Under the pieces are notes generated by a model. The model did no database searches, was not told where the DNA came from, and saw only the letters and a program-made list of their open reading frames with translations. From Candidatus Woykebacteria bacterium GWB1_45_5 (GTDB lineage: Bacteria; Patescibacteriota; Microgenomatia; Woykebacterales; RBG-16-39-9b), in contig MHCO01000032.1 in NCBI GenBank assembly GCA_001816645.1, positions 35,168 through 45,358 on the forward strand: 10,191 nt of DNA. The letters run 5' to 3'. Below are positions 2,602-10,177 of this stretch, one piece after another. Position numbers and translations under genes: made by a program. Numbering within the stretch: the stretch's first letter is position 1; each line of letters starts with the position of its first letter.

Positions 2602-4236
2602 TTACTTTTTTAAACACGCTTCAACAAAAGACAAATAAAGTGGGTGCGGACGCAAAGGTCGGGATTTAAATTCGGGGTGAAACTGGGTACCAACAAAGAA
2701 TGGGTGGTTGGGTAATTCGATCATTTCAACCAATTTACCGTTTAGGCTCGTACCGGAAACAACCAAACCTGCTTTCTCCAATGTTTCGCGGTAATGATTG
2801 TTTAATTCATAACGGTGACGATGACGCTCGTAAACCTCGTTTCGGCCATAGGCTCGTTTGGCTTCTGTTTCTGCCGCTAATTTACAAGGAAATGCCCCTA
2901 GTCGCATTGTCCCGCCATATTCCCGCCCAATTAAAAGCTTTTCCTGCTCCGGCATAATATGAATCACCGGATGCGGCGTTTTGGGATCGATTTCGGTGGT
3001 ATGTGCTTTTTCCAATTTGGCTACATGGCGGGCGAACTCTACTGTCGCCAGCTGCATACCATAACACAAACCTAGATAAGGTTTCTTACTCTCTCTGGCA
3101 AATTTTATGGATTTGATGATTCCCTCTATACCCCGGCCGCCAAAGCCACCTGGTACAACAATCCCGTCCATTTCACGAAGAACCTCTTCAACGCTTTTTC
3201 CTTTCTCAAATTCATCACTGTCAATCCAAAAAAGTCTCGGTTTGGCTTTATGACGCCAGGAGGCATGCTTTATCGCTTCTATCACGGAGACATAAACATC
3301 CTCTAGTTGGAAATCACCAGTGGAAAAGTATTTACCGACAACAGCGATTTTGAGTTCTTTTTTCGCTTTCTCGATGTCCAAAACTAAATTTCGCCACTCC
3401 CCTAAGTTCTTTTTTCCCAGAGGCAACCCAAATTTGGCCAATACCTTTTCACCAACACTCTGGCCGTCCAAAACCTGCGGTACTCGATAAATTGTATCGA
3501 CATCTGGGTTGGAAATTACATCATCACCGGCAACATTGCAAAAAAGCGCTAAACGCTCCTTACGTCGAGCATCCATCGGCAGTTCACTTCTTCCAATAAT
3601 GAAATCAGGCTGTATTCCTAAAGAATTCAAGGCGCGAACCGATTGTTGGACTGGCTTGGATTTCATCTCGCCAAGGTGGCTAGGAATGGGTAAGTAAGCC
3701 ACATGAACGTGCTTGGTTGAACCAGGATTTTTTAGCTCCATTATTCTCGTTGCTTCGAAAAAGAGCATGTTTTGGTATTCGCCAACCGTACCGCCGAGTT
3801 CAATAATGACAAAATCCGGCTCGCTGGCTTTTCCGGCTTCTTTTATCCGGCGAATAATCTCATCAGTGACATGGGGGATCGCCTCGACATCTTCCCCGTC
3901 GTACTCAAAAGCTCTCTCTTTCTTGATTACTTCCTGATAAACCTGGCCGGTGGTAATGTAGTTCGCGGCTGATAAAGATAAATCCAAAAACCGCTCATAG
4001 TGGCCAAGGTCTTGGTCAGTCTCAATCCCATCGTCAGTCACAAAAACTTCACCATGTTCTTGAGGTCTAATAGTACCAGCATCAACATTTAGGTACATAT
4101 CGATTTTGACTGGGGAAACCTTGAAGCCCTTTGATTGAAGGATAGTGGCAAGTGAGGCGGCAGTAATTCCCTTCCCGATCCCGGAAATCACACCACCAGA
4201 AACAAAGATGTATCTTGTACCTACCCTTTTCACCAT
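2602..4236 (-). CDS. pyrG: CTP synthase (glutamine hydrolysing)
   Basis: Converts UTP, ATP and glutamine to CTP, the last step of pyrimidine nucleotide synthesis; cytosolic. The 544 residues match the family length. The N-terminal synthase domain has the GGVISGIGKG P-loop (14-23), HGEVFVTDDG (61-70) and ETDQDLGHYERF (72-83). The C-terminal class I glutaminase domain has PGGFGGRG (362-369), the nucleophile Cys391 in LGLCYGMQ, and His520/Glu522 in TQFHPEF, so the catalytic triad is intact. Small variants are DMYLNVDAGT where DPYLNVDPGT is usual, and CYGMQ for CLGMQ. ATG 4236 (MVKRVGTRYIFVSGG) is chosen because an upstream in-frame ATG at 4467 would add 77 residues encoded by the leader terminator and the end of the preceding gene. 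There is no Shine-Dalgarno. Transcription probably starts at 4350. Confidence 0.97.
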   Translation of the reverse strand: MVKRVGTRYIFVSGGVISGIGKGITAASLATILQSKGFKVSPVKIDMYLNVDAGTIRPQEHGEVFVTDDGIETDQDLGHYERFLDLSLSAANYITTGQVYQEVIKKERAFEYDGEDVEAIPHVTDEIIRRIKEAGKASEPDFVIIELGGTVGEYQNMLFFEATRIMELKNPGSTKHVHVAYLPIPSHLGEMKSKPVQQSVRALNSLGIQPDFIIGRSELPMDARRKERLALFCNVAGDDVISNPDVDTIYRVPQVLDGQSVGEKVLAKFGLPLGKKNLGEWRNLVLDIEKAKKELKIAVVGKYFSTGDFQLEDVYVSVIEAIKHASWRHKAKPRLFWIDSDEFEKGKSVEEVLREMDGIVVPGGFGGRGIEGIIKSIKFARESKKPYLGLCYGMQLATVEFARHVAKLEKAHTTEIDPKTPHPVIHIMPEQEKLLIGREYGGTMRLGAFPCKLAAETEAKRAYGRNEVYERHRHRYELNNHYRETLEKAGLVVSGTSLNGKLVEMIELPNHPFFVGTQFHPEFKSRPLRPHPLYLSFVEACLKK

Positions 4237-4396: not shown

Positions 4397-5092
4397 TCAG
4401 AGGAATTTGAAGGTTGAAAGCATAAGATCTGAAATGTTTTTGTATTCTGCAGCTCTATCACCAACACAGGTTATATAGATCTTGATCATTTGATCGCTAT
4501 TCTTGGAAGATAAGTAGAGTAGGGTATACTCCCCCATGACACCCTTCATATCAGCTTCATAACTCTCTTTATTGTCAATAGTAGATTTCTTAAAAGACAG
4601 GCGGCTTTCCCACGTAGGATCTTGTACTGCAGCCATACTGTTCTGATCGGCAAAATCTCTCAAATTTAATTGATTTGGATTTTCAACTGTCGCAATCACT
4701 ACTCTCATAGCATCACTTAACTGCGTATTCGGTCCTTGTTTTGGACCCCAAATATCAAATTGAACCGCTTCTACACCTAGTGGCCCCATGCGGTTTTTCG
4801 CTACCTCACTCCCTGCTTCTATCTTAGCCTCCACTGGGTACTTTATCTGAAATCCAATCGATCCGCTAGTGTAGTTTTTCCAATCCGCTATCACGTCTTT
4901 TTGGGTGGATGGGGTAGCAGGGTTGGCGGATGTAGTTGCTTGCTTTGTAGTTGTCGTGGGAGAAACTGGTTCTCGGATAAGGAAGTACCAAAATAAAAAG
5001 CCGCCTATTACCCCAGCGACTAGGAGAATTATTAAAACCGTCCAAATTACTTTTGACCAGGAAACGTCTATCGATGATTTTAGTTCAGGCAT
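4397..5092 (-). CDS. Single-pass membrane protein with PsbP-like extracytoplasmic domain (array gene A)
   Basis: A 231-residue protein: short N-terminus (MPELKSSIDVSWSK), membrane helix 15-38, Thr/Ser/Pro/Ala-rich linker 43-64, then a globular domain outside the membrane. WKNYTSGSIGFQIKYP (71-86) and the ending MLSTFKFL are typical of the PsbP-like fold common in exported CPR proteins. Ligand and role are unknown. Residues 1-66 are nearly the same as in gene C (5932-6573), whereas the ectodomains differ, so the anchor was duplicated and the exported part diverged or was exchanged. The start is fixed by the conserved MPE and by a promoter whose -10 ends 7 nt before ATG; there is no Shine-Dalgarno, so a leaderless mRNA is predicted. 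The stop is followed within 10 nt by the pyrG -35. Confidence 0.88.
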   Translation of the reverse strand: MPELKSSIDVSWSKVIWTVLIILLVAGVIGGFLFWYFLIREPVSPTTTTKQATTSANPATPSTQKDVIADWKNYTSGSIGFQIKYPVEAKIEAGSEVAKNRMGPLGVEAVQFDIWGPKQGPNTQLSDAMRVVIATVENPNQLNLRDFADQNSMAAVQDPTWESRLSFKKSTIDNKESYEADMKGVMGEYTLLYLSSKNSDQMIKIYITCVGDRAAEYKNISDLMLSTFKFL

Positions 5093-5099
5093 TGATTTA

Positions 5100-5129
5100 A
5101 TTGTAAATTAAGAGGAATAAAGAAGTCAA
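5100..5129 (-). promoter_or_regulatory. Cassette promoter of gene A, predicted leaderless
   Basis: TTGACT (5129-5124), 18 nt, TACAAT (5105-5100), then 7 nt to ATG 5092. The start of transcription should coincide with the A of ATG. Spacing to ATG is the same in all four copies. Confidence 0.7.
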
Positions 5130-5130
5130 A

Positions 5131-5214
5131 TTAGCGTTGCCGCATAAATGCAGGTATATCAAACTCGTCGGTTTCTTTGTCTTCGGCTTGCCCATTGCCC
5201 TCTTCAGAACTCCT
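5131..5214 (-). pseudogene. ftsZ 3'-end remnant, copy 1
   Basis: In frame it encodes 27 residues and a stop: an acidic linker end, then DEFDIPAFMRQR, the conserved FtsZ C-terminal peptide that binds FtsA/SepF-type partners. No start codon or FtsZ core precedes it, so it is a fragment, not a gene. The stop is TAA. Confidence 0.85.
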
Positions 5215-5219
5215 GATAG

Positions 5220-5930
5220 CTAACCTGTTTCTCGTGTTTCTCCGACCTGCTTCCCTGTAGTAGCTTCAAAAGTTGCTTCGTAACTGTGGTTGTTACCAGA
5301 AACAGCAGTAATTGTAAACTGCGTTGAATTCCCTACCCACTGCCCAAAACTTAGGTTATACATACCTGGAATTTTTGTTCCTAATCCCATTTTCGAAAAA
5401 TCTATTTTTATTTCTCTCCCATCTTCGTCGAGAAGAAAGGCAGCAAAACCTTCTGCAATTTTGGTAGTGATAATAATAAACTTCTTACCAGGTCCTGCAG
5501 AAACATAAATTAAAACCTCGCCTACAGATAAAGTTTCTCCCAGATTATAAGTAGGGCTACTAAGTTGGGATATTTTGACGGCGGTGTTTTTAGATAAATA
5601 TTCATCAACGATATAGGTATCCGCTTTGGGCCAAGGGTAGTCGCTGGTTTCTCCAGCTATTTTATAGATTATGAATTTTTTCGATTTTCCTTGAGAATTT
5701 GTAAATGATACTTGCTTAAGAATCAGAGATTGATCAAGTTTTTCATCAGATTTTGCTGAAGAGGCGGCGGGTTTAGCGGATGATGTTGAAGTTTTTGTGG
5801 TAGTTACAGGTGAGGTTTCTGATTCTTTTGGTCTAGTAAAATACCAAAAAGTAATTCCAACTAACCCAACCAAAATCGCACCGATAATTACTCCTATCAG
5901 AATGTTTTTCCAATTTATTTTTGATTCCAT
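5220..5930 (-). CDS. Single-pass membrane protein of unknown function (array gene B)
   Basis: A 236-residue protein with membrane helix about 9-31, Thr/Ser/Ala/Lys linker 38-62 (ends in a SSAKPAASSAK run), then a soluble extracytoplasmic domain rich in predicted beta strands (for example KKFIIYKI, KKFIIITTKI, TQFTITAV) without a family I recognise. It shares the architecture and linker of its neighbours but starts MESKINWKN, not MPE, and has no cassette of its own. Its ATG lies one base past the TAG of gene C, so it is probably translated by coupling from a C-B operon. Its last codons (GETRETG) and stop TAG run into cassette copy 1, so the C-terminus may have been cut and re-ended by the duplication. 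Confidence 0.85.
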   Translation of the reverse strand: MESKINWKNILIGVIIGAILVGLVGITFWYFTRPKESETSPVTTTKTSTSSAKPAASSAKSDEKLDQSLILKQVSFTNSQGKSKKFIIYKIAGETSDYPWPKADTYIVDEYLSKNTAVKISQLSSPTYNLGETLSVGEVLIYVSAGPGKKFIIITTKIAEGFAAFLLDEDGREIKIDFSKMGLGTKIPGMYNLSFGQWVGNSTQFTITAVSGNNHSYEATFEATTGKQVGETRETG

Positions 5931-5931
5931 A

Positions 5932-6573
5932 CTAGTCTAGTATCTCTATAGTTCTTAAAATACTGTCAATATTGTTATCCACTTCTTCAAAATTTTTCTG
6001 GTCAAAACCGCTAATTAAGATCATTAGATCAGGGCGGTTTTTAAACCCTCCCCAAATAAAAGTCACTTTGTCTGAAGGTACATCGCAATCTTCTCCTGTT
6101 GAATTATCCCAATATGCTAGATTTATTATTTCTCTATCGGTTCTAATAACCTTGCTGCTCATAACTTTGTATGGTCTCATACATCCAAAACCGCCGAAGA
6201 AATTCTCAATAAATGTTATATCGGTTCCCAAGGAGGGGTCTTTTATTGAAATTTCCGTATTTATTTTTTCGCCTTCGTGAATCATTCCATCTTCCTCCTC
6301 CACAGTCCATCTGGGTGGGTACTTGAATGTAATTTTTATATACTTTCCTGTATATTCTTGCCAACCAGCTGTTTCGTCTTTTTGGGCGGAAGGGGTGGCT
6401 TTTTTAGCGGATGGGGTTGCTCGCTTCGTACTTGTCGTTGGAGCAACTGGCTCACGGACATAGAAATACCAAACCAAACCTCCGCCTATCAATCCTACAG
6501 CTATAGCAATAATTACAACTGTCAGAATTACTTTTGGCCAAGAAACGTCTTTTGAGGATTTTAGTTCAGGCAT
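5932..6573 (-). CDS. Single-pass membrane protein, paralogue of gene A (array gene C)
   Basis: A 213-residue protein with the same anchor as gene A: MPELKSSKDVSWPK, membrane helix 15-38, then YVREPVAPTTSTK and a Lys/Thr/Pro/Ser/Ala linker to about 66. The exported domain begins WQEYTGKYIKITFKYPPRW (71-89), again PsbP-like, and has two cysteines (GFGCMRP, GEDCDVP) that could form a disulfide. Function is unknown. Start: conserved MPE, with a TAGAAT ending 7 nt upstream and no Shine-Dalgarno. It is transcribed from the shortened cassette copy 2 and is followed after one base by gene B, the only tight pair in the array. The close match to gene A in residues 1-66 and the divergence beyond point to recent duplication with ectodomain divergence. 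Confidence 0.88.
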   Translation of the reverse strand: MPELKSSKDVSWPKVILTVVIIAIAVGLIGGGLVWYFYVREPVAPTTSTKRATPSAKKATPSAQKDETAGWQEYTGKYIKITFKYPPRWTVEEEDGMIHEGEKINTEISIKDPSLGTDITFIENFFGGFGCMRPYKVMSSKVIRTDREIINLAYWDNSTGEDCDVPSDKVTFIWGGFKNRPDLMILISGFDQKNFEEVDNNIDSILRTIEILD

Positions 6574-6628
6574 TAATTTAATTCTAGGTTAGGAGGATAA
6601 AGAAGTCAAATCAGCGTTGCCGCATAAA
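6574..6628 (-). repeat. Upstream cassette, copy 2 (truncated)
   Basis: Only the last five ftsZ codons plus stop (FMRQR, TGA; 6628-6611) remain, then the cassette promoter: TTGACT (6609-6604), 17 nt, TAGAAT (6586-6581), 7 nt, ATG 6573. The break falls directly after the stop of gene D (6637-6635), so this copy has lost the upstream part present in copies 3 and 4. Confidence 0.85.
6581..6609 (-). promoter_or_regulatory. Cassette promoter of gene C, predicted leaderless
   Basis: TTGACT, 17 nt, TAGAAT, ending 7 nt before ATG 6573. It is one base shorter between the boxes than the other three copies. It probably drives the C-B pair. Confidence 0.7.
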
Positions 6629-6634
6629 GCTGAT

Positions 6635-7339
6635 CTAAGATATTTCTTTCAAATATTCTCCGAATAATCTTTTAGTAACCTCGAGAAGAGGTCCAGAATT
6701 CATTTCCCCGCTTTGGTATTTGCCTACAAGTATAGTGAGTAAATATGGCAAGGGAACATTTCTTTTTGCAAATTCAGATATATAGTTCTTTACCAAACTT
6801 CTATTCTCAGCATCGTTGTATTCGCCTGCCAAAAACTTCTCAGCATCAGTATTAGAGACAACGAATGCTCCACCCCATCTCGATACTACCTCAGCCGTTA
6901 ATTTATCTGCTTTTTCCTGTAATGTTTTTCCTTCAATACTTACCAACAACTGCTGAGCTTCTTGTAGCTCCTCTGCTTCTTCTTTTGTTAAGTTCTGCCT
7001 CTTTTCGTAATCCTTTATTCCCGTATCCAACTTCGTTAGTACATCTAAACACTCATCGGTCAGAACCGCCTTAAATTTTATAGAGATTTCTTCAGATGGA
7101 GAAGAGTTTTTTTGGTTGGTTTTAGGTGCAGAGGGAGTGGCTACTTGTTTTTTAGTAGTCCCTATAGAAGCTTCTTTTTTGCCAAAAACATCTAGGACCA
7201 CTGCTGTATAACCTAAACCGCCAAGAATGATTGCTGCGATCACTACTATAATTCCGATGATCTTCCAGTTAATTGATTTCTTTGGTGTTGCAAAAGTTGG
7301 CGTAGGTTGTTGAGGATTATTTAGATTGACTTCGGGCAT
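6635..7339 (-). CDS. Single-pass membrane protein with helical exported domain (array gene D)
   Basis: A 234-residue protein. MPEVNLNNPQQPTPTF and a short polar segment precede membrane helix 27-49, then a linker with ATPSAPK, and an extracytoplasmic domain from about 85 that reads as mainly alpha-helical (for example KEEAEELQEAQQLL, 118-131). No family recognised. Only the MPE start and promoter link it to genes A and C; the anchor itself is different. Spacing of TAGAAT to ATG is 7 nt and there is no Shine-Dalgarno. Two promoters may serve it: the cassette one and TTGACT-N16-TACAAT at 7501-7474. The stop (6637-6635) abuts the broken cassette copy 2. Confidence 0.85.
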   Translation of the reverse strand: MPEVNLNNPQQPTPTFATPKKSINWKIIGIIVVIAAIILGGLGYTAVVLDVFGKKEASIGTTKKQVATPSAPKTNQKNSSPSEEISIKFKAVLTDECLDVLTKLDTGIKDYEKRQNLTKEEAEELQEAQQLLVSIEGKTLQEKADKLTAEVVSRWGGAFVVSNTDAEKFLAGEYNDAENRSLVKNYISEFAKRNVPLPYLLTILVGKYQSGEMNSGPLLEVTKRLFGEYLKEIS

Positions 7340-7346
7340 TAATTTA

Positions 7347-7376
7347 ATTCTAGATTAGGAGGGGTAAGGAAGTCAA
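7347..7376 (-). promoter_or_regulatory. Cassette promoter of gene D, predicted leaderless
   Basis: TTGACT (7376-7371), 18 nt, TAGAAT (7352-7347), then 7 nt to ATG 7339. Confidence 0.7.
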
Positions 7377-7377
7377 A

Positions 7378-7461
7378 TCAGCGTTGCCGCATAAACGCCG
7401 GGATGTCAAACTCGTCGGTTTCTTTGTCTTCGGAGGCACCATTGCCTTCTTCAGAACTCCT
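7378..7461 (-). pseudogene. ftsZ 3'-end remnant, copy 3
   Basis: Encodes 27 residues ending DEFDIPAFMRQR and TGA. A TGA lies in frame just upstream (in GTGAGC), so no longer FtsZ reading frame exists here. Confidence 0.85.
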
Positions 7462-7473
7462 GATAGCTCACTT

Positions 7474-7501
7474 ATTGTATTATCCTAGATGCAGTAGTCA
7501 A
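7474..7501 (-). promoter_or_regulatory. Second, upstream promoter before cassette copy 3
   Basis: TTGACT (7501-7496), 16 nt, TACAAT (7479-7474). A related arrangement precedes copy 4 (9221-9193). It would transcribe through the ftsZ tail into gene D with a leader of about 130 nt. Confidence 0.55.
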
Positions 7502-7522
7502 TAGGGATTTTTGAGGAATTTG
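7496..7522 (-). repeat. Remnant of a duplicated gene 3' end
   Basis: AAATTCCTCAAAAATCCCT and then ATTGAC matches the end of gene A and the pyrG -35 region (4409-4381: AAATTCCTCTGAAAATCCCT, TATTGAC). Here it reads KFLKNPY then stop, like a PsbP-type C-terminus, but lies just past the unrelated gene E. It is a likely recombination scar. Confidence 0.6.
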
Positions 7523-7531
7523 TTTGCTGAA

Positions 7532-9058
7532 TTACTCCTCCACTAACAGGATTTGATCTTCTTCATCAGAACGATCGTAAGATATTTGTATGAAAGATTT
7601 ATCCCTCAAATCTACCCTATAGATACCTTGTTTATCAGTAGCAACAGGAGGAGAGCATACTACACCGCCAAATGAGCGGTTTAAATAAATAACATCTCCT
7701 CCTATATTGCTTGGATTATGATAGTTGTACGTGTCGTATAAGCATCCATCGCTCTTAGTAATGATTTGGCTATAATCTTTTACTCCCAATTCTCTTTGAT
7801 TAGTTAGATCGTAAGTAATAACTTTAGCTCCTCCATCTGAATAAATTAGTTCGTTAGGCATCTTAAAATTACAAACCGTTGGGGTCATTGTGTTGCTGGG
7901 AGAAGTCAACAACTGCTGGACAGATTCTTTCTGTATATTGTAGGCATAGTAGGAAGTGTATTTTTCGCCTGATTTAATATCATTCTGGACAGAGCCCAAA
8001 GTTACCCAGTTATTATTACAGAAACTAATAGGCTGAATTCTTTTTACTGCAGGGTCTAAACTTAACGATGAAGGGATTTTTATCTTTTCCACCTGATGTG
8101 TTTTTAAGTTAATTTTTTCCAAACCTAGTATATTCTGCTTATCAATAAGTTCCGGCTTACCTCCATATCCAAAAACTAAGTCGGGGTAACTAGCTTTAAT
8201 TAAATAGTTATTTTCCAGTTTTTTGACCATCATAAGATAAGCACTAGTCGGATCTGAAATAGTATAATGAGTATTACTTTCTAGGTTAAAAATACCTATT
8301 TCATTGGTTTTGGGCAAACTCGTGTTATAAACTAAAGTGTTATCGTCAATTATCTTCGGCCAAAAAAAGTTACCTTGAGCAAGGTTTTTGGAATTACCAC
8401 TAAGGTCAATGGAAAATAGATCATTTCTTCCTTCCCTATTTAACGTAATGTACAAGCTCTTGCTATCTAAGGACCATACAGGTTCTTGAATATATCCTGA
8501 ATATAAACTTGCCCCACTTAGAAGCTTTTTCTTTTCTCCTTTAACTAGATCATAAAACCAGAGATCCCATCCATTTATCGCTATATCTATGTGGGATTTG
8601 GGATCTTGTGAAGTAAGGCCAACATAAAAGGCTACCTTGGTTTTATCAGGACTTAAGACTGTATTGCCATATAAAGATACTTTTTCGGATATATTTTTAC
8701 TTGGAGCAACTAGATCAAAAAAAGATAAAAGTTGTCTTTCCTTCTTTGTTTTTAAATCATAATCCCAAATCCCAGCCCTATTAGTTGGCTGATTTAACAT
8801 CAATTTAGAGTAAATTATTTTTGAATCACCTTTAGAAATAGGTTTAGCAGATGAGGTTGCTTGTTCTCCCGATTCCTTAGATGTAGGATTTGGTGGGTTT
8901 TTAAGTAACAGCCAAACGCCCACACCAATTAAAATAAGGATTAAGATAGTACTTAATAAAATCCAAAGCCACTTTTTTGATTTTTTCTTTTCTAATGAAG
9001 GAAATTGCTCAGTTTTGGGTTGATCTGACTGTATAGGCACAGCTTGGTTTTCAGGCAT
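7532..9058 (-). CDS. Membrane-anchored TolB-like beta-propeller protein (array gene E)
   Basis: A 508-residue protein. A charged cytoplasmic N-terminus (MPENQ, ending KKKSKK) precedes membrane helix 30-52, a short linker with ATSSAKPISK, and an exported domain from about 80 to the end. It carries repeated PD40/TolB-type blade motifs: GIWDYDLKTKKERQLL (96-111), LSPDKTKVAFYV (135-146), DLWFYDLVKGEKKKLL (165-180), VWSLDSKSLYIT (194-205), DLFSIDLSG (213-221) and a late GIYRVDLRDKSFIQIS. This points to a six- or seven-bladed propeller for protein or glycan contacts at the cell surface; the partner is unknown. It uses the same MPE start and cassette promoter (copy 4) as its neighbours, with TACAAT ending 7 nt before ATG. 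It is the longest member and its domain is unrelated to the others. Confidence 0.9.
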   Translation of the reverse strand: MPENQAVPIQSDQPKTEQFPSLEKKKSKKWLWILLSTILILILIGVGVWLLLKNPPNPTSKESGEQATSSAKPISKGDSKIIYSKLMLNQPTNRAGIWDYDLKTKKERQLLSFFDLVAPSKNISEKVSLYGNTVLSPDKTKVAFYVGLTSQDPKSHIDIAINGWDLWFYDLVKGEKKKLLSGASLYSGYIQEPVWSLDSKSLYITLNREGRNDLFSIDLSGNSKNLAQGNFFWPKIIDDNTLVYNTSLPKTNEIGIFNLESNTHYTISDPTSAYLMMVKKLENNYLIKASYPDLVFGYGGKPELIDKQNILGLEKINLKTHQVEKIKIPSSLSLDPAVKRIQPISFCNNNWVTLGSVQNDIKSGEKYTSYYAYNIQKESVQQLLTSPSNTMTPTVCNFKMPNELIYSDGGAKVITYDLTNQRELGVKDYSQIITKSDGCLYDTYNYHNPSNIGGDVIYLNRSFGGVVCSPPVATDKQGIYRVDLRDKSFIQISYDRSDEEDQILLVEE

Positions 9059-9065
9059 TGATTTA

Positions 9066-9095
9066 ATTGTAGATTAGGAGGGGTAAGGAAGTCAA
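9066..9095 (-). promoter_or_regulatory. Cassette promoter of gene E, predicted leaderless
   Basis: TTGACT (9095-9090), 18 nt, TACAAT (9071-9066), then 7 nt to ATG 9058. Confidence 0.7.
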
Positions 9096-9096
9096 A

Positions 9097-9180
9097 TTAG
9101 CTTTGCCGCATAAATGCCGGGATGTCGAACTCTGAGTCTTCGTCGCTCTCGGCTTGGCCGTTGCCATCTTCAGAACTCCT
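9097..9180 (-). pseudogene. ftsZ 3'-end remnant, copy 4
   Basis: Encodes 27 residues ending SEFDIPAFMRQS and TAA. Its length matches copies 1 and 3, although the acidic linker part has changed (ESDEDS for EDKETD). Confidence 0.85.
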
Positions 9181-9313: not shown

Positions 9314-9370
9314 ATTCATGTGTGTTTTATTTTTGTTGATAATATAAGTCCCATCAGATAATTTTTGAAG

Positions 9371-10177
9371 ATGAAAAAAATTTCTTGTCTAATAATTGTA
9401 AGTTGTTTATTTACTATATCAATCTCCCCAGTTTGGGCCACACCACCTAGCACCCCAGAAAAAGTTTTTATTAAAGAAATCCTTGTATCCAAAGACACTA
9501 TCTATTTAACAAACGAGGAATCCTTTATTTCCTCCGATATTTCCTCTATTTCCTCTTTTTCTAATTATCAATTTAGCATAAATAAAATTCTGGCAAATTT
9601 GGATGATTTCCAAAAAGAGTCCAAGGTCAAGTTGTATTTAGAAACCACAAAAGGAATCGAAGTGGTACTAAAAGAGGATACAATCGAAAGTCTTACTAGC
9701 AAAAAAGATTATTTCCATTTCTTTCAAGGAGATACATTAAGGTATCAATATGCTACGCAACACTCTTTGGGTACTCAAGTGAGAAAAACTCCTGCCTGTA
9801 CATCAGACCAAGTCAATATTCTTATTGATGCTATTTATCATAAAAAGACGATCGTTCCCAAAGAGATGGTAAGACCTGAAGGAGATATTTGTGATTATCC
9901 TCAAATTAGATTCCCTCAAGTAGATATTTCTAAAATCTATAACTTTAGTGACAAAAAAAGTCTTGATAATTCCAAATTAACACTGAAGATCGATAACACA
10001 ATTTATCGTCAATATCTTCTTGGATATCAACCAGGAGTTATTTTTTCTGGTCCTAACTACTATTTTACAAATAATAATCTCTTTTATTTGGCTGTAATAG
10101 GATTGATAATTTCAATTAGCACAATTTTCTTGATAATATTCCTTAGAAACAAAAAGAAGAAGAAGGTTGATACTTGA
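9371..10177 (+). CDS. Secreted type I membrane protein of unknown function
   Basis: A 268-residue protein. A signal peptide occupies residues 1-23 (MKK, hydrophobic core, cleavage after PVWA), then an exported domain of about 210 residues, a membrane helix at about 237-258 and a KKKKK cytoplasmic tail. Cys143 and Cys174 are the only cysteines outside the signal and could form a disulfide. Residues 49-64 are serine-rich. No family recognised. ATG 9371 is preferred to the in-frame TTG two codons earlier because MKKISCLIIV is a typical signal start. It has no Shine-Dalgarno. It is divergent from the array and differs in topology: cleaved signal and C-terminal anchor, not N-terminal anchor. The stop TGA overlaps the next ATG by one base, so it probably heads an operon that continues past the window. 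Confidence 0.87.
   Translation: MKKISCLIIVSCLFTISISPVWATPPSTPEKVFIKEILVSKDTIYLTNEESFISSDISSISSFSNYQFSINKILANLDDFQKESKVKLYLETTKGIEVVLKEDTIESLTSKKDYFHFFQGDTLRYQYATQHSLGTQVRKTPACTSDQVNILIDAIYHKKTIVPKEMVRPEGDICDYPQIRFPQVDISKIYNFSDKKSLDNSKLTLKIDNTIYRQYLLGYQPGVIFSGPNYYFTNNNLFYLAVIGLIISISTIFLIIFLRNKKKKKVDT

Follow-up and report, generated by a model that had tools for sequence, protein, structure and literature searches.

How does a stretch of DNA in which no FtsZ core is encoded come to carry the end of ftsZ several times over, in front of one gene after another? The question is posed by 10,191 nucleotides of the genome of Candidatus Woykebacteria bacterium GWB1_45_5 (G000:C32:35168-45358; genome G000, 882 kb, 55 contigs, 92.5% complete), referred to below as the window, in which a first-pass annotation had described three copies of 84 nt and one of 18 nt of the ftsZ 3′ end. 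Comparison with other members of the class Microgenomatia leaves us in very little doubt that the ftsZ 3′ end serves as an integration site in this class, and makes it probable that the array in the window arose by integration there. Prophages, islands and cassettes would use this end as their attachment site, of which the copies, termed tails A to D, are most likely relics; we read them in this way because displaced tails recur in the class, integrase genes adjoin ftsZ, phage genes occur at ftsZ and the same cassettes are met repeatedly.

All four copies were borne out by translation and alignment. On the minus strand, positions 9180-9097 (tail A), 7461-7378 (tail B) and 5214-5131 (tail C) read RSSEDGNGQAESDEDSEFDIPAFMRQS, RSSEEGNGASEDKETDEFDIPAFMRQR and RSSEEGNGQAEDKETDEFDIPAFMRQR, respectively, each followed by a stop codon, and 6628-6611 (tail D) retains the last five codons and the stop (TTTATGCGGCAACGCTGA). 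A 151-nt block around the first copy recovers the other copies of the genome with E values of 2.8e-42, 7.6e-34 and 2e-20 (the last mostly through the leader described below) and the resident ftsZ with 2e-20 at 90% identity over 68 nt; the proposed descent of the tails from ftsZ is thus upheld and, judged by these alignments, the similarity is not a matter of chance. The resident gene runs on the minus strand and ends, 188 bp past the window's right edge, in EEGNGASEDKETDEFDIPAFMRQR and a stop codon, about 50 nt beyond which a further tail fragment, ACATTCCAGCTTTTATGCGACAGCGTTGA, is found. Because its 3′ part lies on contig C32 and its 5′ part at the end of contig C38, the assembly must be broken inside ftsZ. 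The reported lack of an FtsZ core therefore holds within the window, but the gene ends just outside it, and of the 27 residues ascribed to FtsZ about 24 codons are clearly homologous, whereas the first three residues, RSS, differ from ATV in FtsZ. Two findings had been named in advance as speaking against the first-pass proposal, a different terminal peptide of the genome's ftsZ and a downstream region unlike the cassette; the peptide is the same, but the DNA after ftsZ is indeed unlike the cassette. Read from ftsZ, the array consists of the short tail fragment, a 270-aa gene on the opposite strand, tail A, a 508-aa gene, tail B, a 234-aa gene, the partial tail D, a 213- and a 236-aa gene, tail C, a 231-aa gene and pyrG (Table 1).

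Tails A, B and C belong to a shared block of about 131 nt, composed of the tail itself (63-73/84 positions identical) and a leader with ATGCCTGAA (39-44/47). These blocks are ~80-86% alike, but beyond them the ungapped identity is at chance level, with 19-26/100 into the genes, from past the third codon, and 16-26/80 upstream. Each of the four tails is followed by a promoter-like leader of the form TTGACT-17/18-TANAAT with an ATG ~10 nt further on. Across the region, the number of promoter-like hits (18) stays within the shuffled range (mean 14.0, s.d. 4.1), and the case for promoters rests therefore on their placement after every tail. Counting from the last upstream stop, the FtsZ frame of all four copies offers a single ATG, GTG or TTG, which encodes the M of MRQR/S, so that the FtsZ peptide would not be made from the tails by the usual starts, and a coding role of the tails in this frame was rejected. 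The core differences among the window's tails and ftsZ are nearly all synonymous.

The leaders raise the alternative that the tails serve the genes downstream, as DNA or as RNA, for example as a promoter-proximal element, a terminator or a small out-of-frame peptide, and that they were selected and spread together with the promoter. Such a role would fit the TTGACT..TANAAT pair right after each tail, joined at tails A and B by another one upstream, the single terminator-like hit in tail B, the AGGAG at the start of each full tail and the short non-FtsZ frame that is open in A and B. However, the same out-of-frame reading is open in ftsZ itself and therefore follows from FtsZ coding, tail D has lost nearly the whole tail with leader and gene retained, and elsewhere in the class tails stand between genes of either orientation; we consider this explanation very improbable. 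The upstream pairs of tails A and B (TTGACT..TAAAAT at 9221-9193 and TTGACT..TACAAT at 7501-7474, minus strand, ~40 nt before the tails) are themselves followed by AGGAG and a short open frame outside the FtsZ frame. By eye, hairpins adjoin some of the tails.

Related genomes, in which the first-pass annotation had advised looking for the same tails, do contain them. A degenerate pattern, DIP[AST]F-x-R, matches in 218/373 class genomes (54 of the 73 in the family of G367; G and L numbers are our handles for genomes and loci), and several class genomes carry at least two copies close together. When 73 stretches around ftsZ were scanned with a matrix built from resident ftsZ tails, the ftsZ end was recognised in 63, part of which had been fetched because of repeats or an integrase, and 34 displaced tails scoring at least 18 were found in 19 of these 63 loci (792 kb of downstream DNA), all except one on the ftsZ strand; the maximum score in a reversed-sequence control was 13.7. 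Displaced tails are also present in seven of the ten stretches without a recognised ftsZ end (L124, L141, L144, L157, L173, L177 and L189, of which L141 and L189 overlap). For the family fetched without a filter for repeats or integrase (35 stretches from 34 of its 54 pattern-bearing genomes, 29 of them with an ftsZ end), the number of loci with displaced tails is 9/29. An own-tail test detected copies in 10/54 class loci versus 0/64 FtsZ loci of a GTDB scan, with none in the reversed control of either set; nine class loci with short downstream DNA and 16/80 GTDB loci with an unusable tail or too little DNA were left out, and one of the 64, L039, is itself from a class genome. Within the window's own family and order, an array like that in the window was not seen, as none of the nine other genomes of the order gave more than one pattern match; G004 and G005 do show short tail fragments. 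In G004 (L027) three gene-less copies lie ~0-300 nt past ftsZ, the last two spaced 111 bp, and two of the three are preceded, by eye, by GGAATGCAGT, a hairpin and TATA, the hairpin sequences differing with the pairing kept. The only inverted one of the 34 tails (L126, G293; 9443-9393, minus strand) stands 1.7 kb downstream of ftsZ on the opposite strand and may reflect inversion or inverse insertion.

In the PAF[LM]RQ codons of 33 displaced tails compared with resident ftsZ, 118 differing nucleotides fall in synonymous and 16 in nonsynonymous codons, where random single changes would be 25% synonymous, and the whole hexapeptide is kept in 26/33 tails; the excess is overstated, given that copies of this kind are favoured by the matrix and that the tails depend on one another. 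Judged by this codon pattern, the changes were probably gathered while each tail still ended a working ftsZ, as serial replacement predicts. Two functions had initially been considered for the tails. That of templates for varying the FtsZ C-terminus finds a weak echo in the mosaic ftsZ end described below, but the peptide is kept and not varied, since the core differences are mostly synonymous; that of recombination seeds with the true ftsZ comes near to the integration favoured here.

Integrase genes are found at the same position. The integrase of G370 gave eight matches (E 1e-35 or better) in 8/373 class genomes, one each and the query included, all of which adjoin the ftsZ end and which are spread over four families. 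Seven of the genes begin 130-231 bp past the ftsZ stop, and in the eighth (G084), encoded on the opposite strand, ~150 bp separate the near end from the stop. The match in G228 is a 121-residue piece, those in G070 and G278 are close to a contig end, and no convincing displaced tail was found for G159 (a doubtful one only) or for G268 (within 16 kb downstream). Beyond the class, the ftsZ-linked integrase was sought in 379 genomes drawn from the phylum and met in one, G084, which is itself a class member. In G311, G370 and G374 the integrase belongs to elements of 6.1, 7.5 and 7.0 kb, respectively, with varied cargo between ftsZ and a displaced tail, the displaced far ends being at +6056, +7547 and +7796. 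Two of these three integrases were tested and match PF00589 (E 3e-32 and 2e-30), and the third is 42-64% identical to them. The ftsZ genes beside the inserts are intact and their terminal peptide is complete. The cargo includes an AbiP2-type reverse transcriptase in G370 (E 9e-173) and a candidate defence protein matching PDC-S45 in G311; of six cargo proteins searched, two were without a match. The inserts after ftsZ in G268 (L192) and G159 (L191), which contain the 42-43% identical integrase, carry long gene runs on the opposite strand, and some genes of the G268 insert resemble, by eye, phage structural genes.

Units devoid of an integrase occur at the same site. One of 762 bp in G374, which abuts the 7.0-kb integrase element, contains a Fic/Doc gene together with a gene for 80 aa that has no Pfam hit; others carry NYN, HATPase, PLD-like or DUF3800 proteins or, in G265, a PDC-S02 match. 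They measure 0.6-3.6 kb, and gene-less units 46-111 bp. The Fic genes of G374, G373 and G155 share 57-61% identity (G373 and G374 being of the same genus) and the NYN genes of G245, G373 and G129 61-78% (G129 being of another family), and both cassettes recur at differing array positions and in differing genomes. An arm (GGTGYTT, TTGAAGCTA, TGTCTTA) stands directly before the core in many displaced tails; GGTGYTT is present in 14/45 displaced sites, one of which, in L189, is actually a resident ftsZ, versus 0/18 resident ftsZ. Another motif, GAAGC/TAGCTTC, proved not to be specific (25/45 displaced, 12/18 resident) and was not used. The DNA that G245 has in common with G127 starts at the stop codon of the most distant displaced tail in G245, as expected of an attR.

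The site is also found in viral contigs. In L186 (IMGVR_UViG_3300027835_000014), two tail sites enclose 5.9 kb that include a 74% identical integrase, and across the first of these sites lies another integrase gene; the two different integrase genes flanking this tail site suggest that unrelated integrases use the same site. In L209, whose fetched stretch covers one element boundary only, an ftsZ ending in DIPTFLRKK is followed ~130 nt later by an integrase gene and then by terminase, portal, head protease and major head (capsid) genes (PHROGs). Among 23 viral contigs with an FtsZ relative, it alone gave a tail match scoring at least 13, and a strict right-arm pattern found no match in viral contigs. 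In a comparison with known phages, the L209 integrase matched 230 records, with 26-27% identity among the matches listed (6 of 230). The wide occurrence of the tails also bears on the idea that repeats were misjoined in a metagenome-assembled genome, for which the split of ftsZ over C32 and C38 and the ends of some relatives' contigs near ftsZ might be adduced. Yet differences at 11-21/84 nt and distinct flanks set the full copies in the window apart, many other assemblies show the pattern as well and one viral contig has two tail sites, which leaves an assembly artefact with next to no probability. Some contigs of G305, G231 and G400, as well as C32 and C38 of G000, end within or shortly after ftsZ; tail repeats may break assemblies, and islands there may be undercounted.

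On this basis, we propose the following scenario. The ftsZ 3′ end would act as attB for site-specific integration, and an incoming circle would recombine within the (D)IPAF[LM]RQ codons. The circle would supply its own version of the last codons, leaving FtsZ intact, and the previous 3′ end would come to lie beyond the insert. As prophages, 6-7.5 kb tyrosine-integrase islands, some with defence-like genes, and integrase-less cassettes inserted time after time, former ftsZ ends would line up in a row. The window's tails would be such displaced ends between small cassettes, the oldest one, tail C, standing beside the ancestral neighbours (the 231-aa gene and pyrG). The direction and order of the events, the exact crossover point and, for the window, integration rather than tandem duplication are what we infer in this scenario. 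Within this genome it is favoured by the sharp edges of the 131-nt blocks before dissimilar genes, by the partly mosaic ftsZ end and by the position of tail C. The gene behind tail C has its counterpart in the G002 gene that precedes pyrG (31% over 229 residues, E 4e-11), which makes tail C the best candidate for the original end of ftsZ; pyrG follows ftsZ directly in G005 and G006. At the 11 sites that distinguish tails B and C, the resident ftsZ is B-like at six in the linker, C-like at four in DIPA (codons 19-22) and B-like again at the stop codon (exact p 0.005 without the stop codon). This pattern does no more than suggest an ftsZ end that is partly a mosaic of tails B and C, because the linker sites are clustered and the split was picked afterwards.

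Several observations weigh against integration, in the window or in the class. No integrase lies by ftsZ or in the window's array, the one PF00589 gene of the genome being on another contig, and the search for the ftsZ-linked integrase gave no match in this fragmented genome of 92.5% completeness; the array is therefore not classed as a complete integrative element. Its tails are without the shared arm and reach up to ~75 nt into ftsZ, beyond the ~24 to ~36 nt of ftsZ-like sequence before the stop seen by eye elsewhere, and the mosaic is not clean, given the B-like stop codon. As a mobile cassette elsewhere the 508-aa protein was not encountered, no relative being present at E 1e-15 in the other 372 genomes. 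The array proteins have similar N-terminal segments, and the likeness of blocks D and C extends further, the 213- and 231-aa proteins being 60% identical over their first 92 residues, as in a duplicated family. In the class, no clean empty site was found among the locus pairs compared by blastn, the relatives carrying other DNA in the interval, and G127 has other DNA, without a tail, at the junction shared with G245. Furthermore, the matrix favours peptide-preserving copies, some loci were chosen for repeats or integrase, and the copy in L191 (G159) lies within an open frame and is perhaps due to chance. Our confidence is lower for the window than for the class because of the lone distant PF00589 gene, the missing arm, the long tails and genes that possibly form a divergent tandem family.

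Such a family is the essence of a different history, in which unequal crossing-over duplicated in place a unit that begins ~75 nt ahead of the ftsZ stop and takes in the promoter and a membrane-anchored gene; the genes would have diverged and the tails would be passengers, perhaps kept alike by gene conversion. Array-like genes between ftsZ and pyrG in G002 (one, with a promoter-like leader that is similar by eye) and G004 (two), family members scattered in relatives (up to nine matches, in G001), the closely spaced gene-less tails of G004 and the related 213- and 231-aa genes, whose DNA is 77.5% identical over 280 nt with the leader included, are all consistent with it. The genes behind the window's tails each encode a hydrophobic N-terminal segment; the 236-aa protein matches the 213-aa (E 4e-9) and the 231-aa protein (E 6e-5), and the other matches among array proteins are weak and mostly confined to the N-terminal segment (E 0.001-0.004). 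Tandem duplication would, however, have to reconcile tail blocks as alike as those of A, B and C with genes at chance DNA identity behind them. The proteins behind these three tails lack clear similarity among themselves, the 508- and 234-aa ones showing no significant match to each other, and the almost exclusively synonymous core differences are unlike the mix expected of decaying passengers. Moreover, tails of this kind delimit unrelated genes and adjoin integrases in relatives, and the integrase-linked tails of the class are left unexplained. The first-pass proposal of an array generated by duplicating DNA that starts inside ftsZ thus describes a possible course of events, which we regard as a serious competitor, though less likely than integration.

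Table 1. Features of the array and its neighbours in the window (positions counted from the first nucleotide of the window).
Feature	Positions	Strand	Remarks
Tail copy A	9097..9180	-	displaced ftsZ 3′ end, 27 codons and stop; translation, alignment
Leader after tail A	9059..9096	-	TTGACT-18-TACAAT promoter-like, then ATG within ~10 nt
508-aa protein	7532..9058	-	hydrophobic N-terminal segment; weak PD40 (beta-propeller) match just below Pfam cut-off
Tail copy B	7378..7461	-	linker almost identical to resident ftsZ
Leader after tail B	7340..7377	-	TTGACT-18-TAGAAT promoter-like
234-aa protein	6635..7339	-	hydrophobic N-terminal segment; without clear similarity to 508-aa protein
Partial tail D	6611..6628	-	last five codons and stop
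Leader after tail D	6574..6610	-	TTGACT-17-TAGAAT promoter-like
213-aa protein	5932..6573	-	weak PsbP-like match under cut-off; first 92 aa 60% identical to 231-aa protein
236-aa protein	5220..5930	-	similar N-terminal segment; stop directly precedes tail block C
Tail copy C	5131..5214	-	farthest from ftsZ; DIPAFMR codons same as resident ftsZ; candidate original ftsZ end
Leader after tail C	5093..5130	-	TTGACT-18-TACAAT promoter-like
231-aa protein	4397..5092	-	counterpart of gene just before pyrG in relative G002
pyrG (CTP synthase)	2602..4233	-	downstream neighbour of ftsZ in relatives; start inferred
270-aa protein	9365..10177	+	located between ftsZ and tail A; by eye, a predicted secreted/membrane protein; without a Pfam family

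Beyond pyrG follow a merR-type gene, a KGG-repeat gene and a tRNA-synthetase gene matching that of relatives which we take to be ileS. The KGG-repeat (stress-induced motif) protein of 85 aa is encoded at 1275-1532 on the minus strand, and KGG-repeat-like proteins are found by eye between the merR-type gene and ileS in G004, G002 and G006.

Genomic islands and prophages are known to enter genes that they thereby restore (PMC4383910, PMC12884075). The class elements resemble them in the tyrosine integrase by the target, the restored target, the displaced fragment at the far end and the variable cargo, but differ in the target, which is ftsZ with the codons of its conserved C-terminal peptide, and in the integrase-less array of the window. 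Tandem accretion arrays with cis-mobilizable elements (CIMEs) and microCIMEs have been described in Streptococcus salivarius (PMC7563491). These are comparable to the integrase-less, repeat-bounded units of 0.6-3.6 kb and the gene-less ones of 46-111 bp at a gene 3′ end. The unit of G374 stands next to an integrase-bearing element, of which none was found at ftsZ in the window's genome; the units in the window are repeat-bounded and without recombination genes. This likeness refers to the layout of the units and not to conjugation genes, and target and hosts are different here, as are the small Fic/Doc and NYN cassettes common to several genomes. SCC/ECC cassette chromosomes at the rlmH 3′ end use the serine recombinases CcrAB (PMC6222049). 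Shared features are direct repeats in the 3′ part of a conserved gene, variable cargo and remnants, whereas the recombinase is here a tyrosine recombinase (PF00589 in the two tested) and not CcrAB.

In integrons, small gene cassettes form arrays in which one site is repeated. The array layout, rather than attC or IntI, invites comparison with them, with small cassettes at a repeated site and the same cassettes in differing positions, but the repeated site is here a piece of a housekeeping gene. With considerable doubt, we speculate that the system may be an integron-like cassette platform anchored in the conserved FtsZ C-terminal peptide and served by integrases in trans, through which mobile DNA would repeatedly exchange the end of an essential division gene. 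The promoter and start at each tail site of this genome would then express any cassette on arrival, the last ftsZ codons would be horizontally acquired and the array would be a fossil record of former ends. No report of ftsZ as an integration target was found in the literature searched (open-licence PMC papers); as far as this search reaches, what is new is ftsZ as the target, the group to which the hosts belong and the sharing of small cassettes, while the kind of element itself is known.

To our knowledge, few temperate phages or islands have been mapped in these tiny, mostly uncultured bacteria. The ftsZ 3′ end names an integration hotspot in this ultra-small bacterial group, and a displaced ftsZ tail combined with an integrase provides a simple marker for linking phages and islands to their hosts and for delimiting them. 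It also points to a place where defence genes may collect. The FtsZ C-terminal peptide is the contact site for FtsZ partners, and it can be tested whether mobile DNA replaces the end of such an essential gene while leaving the encoded amino acids unchanged.

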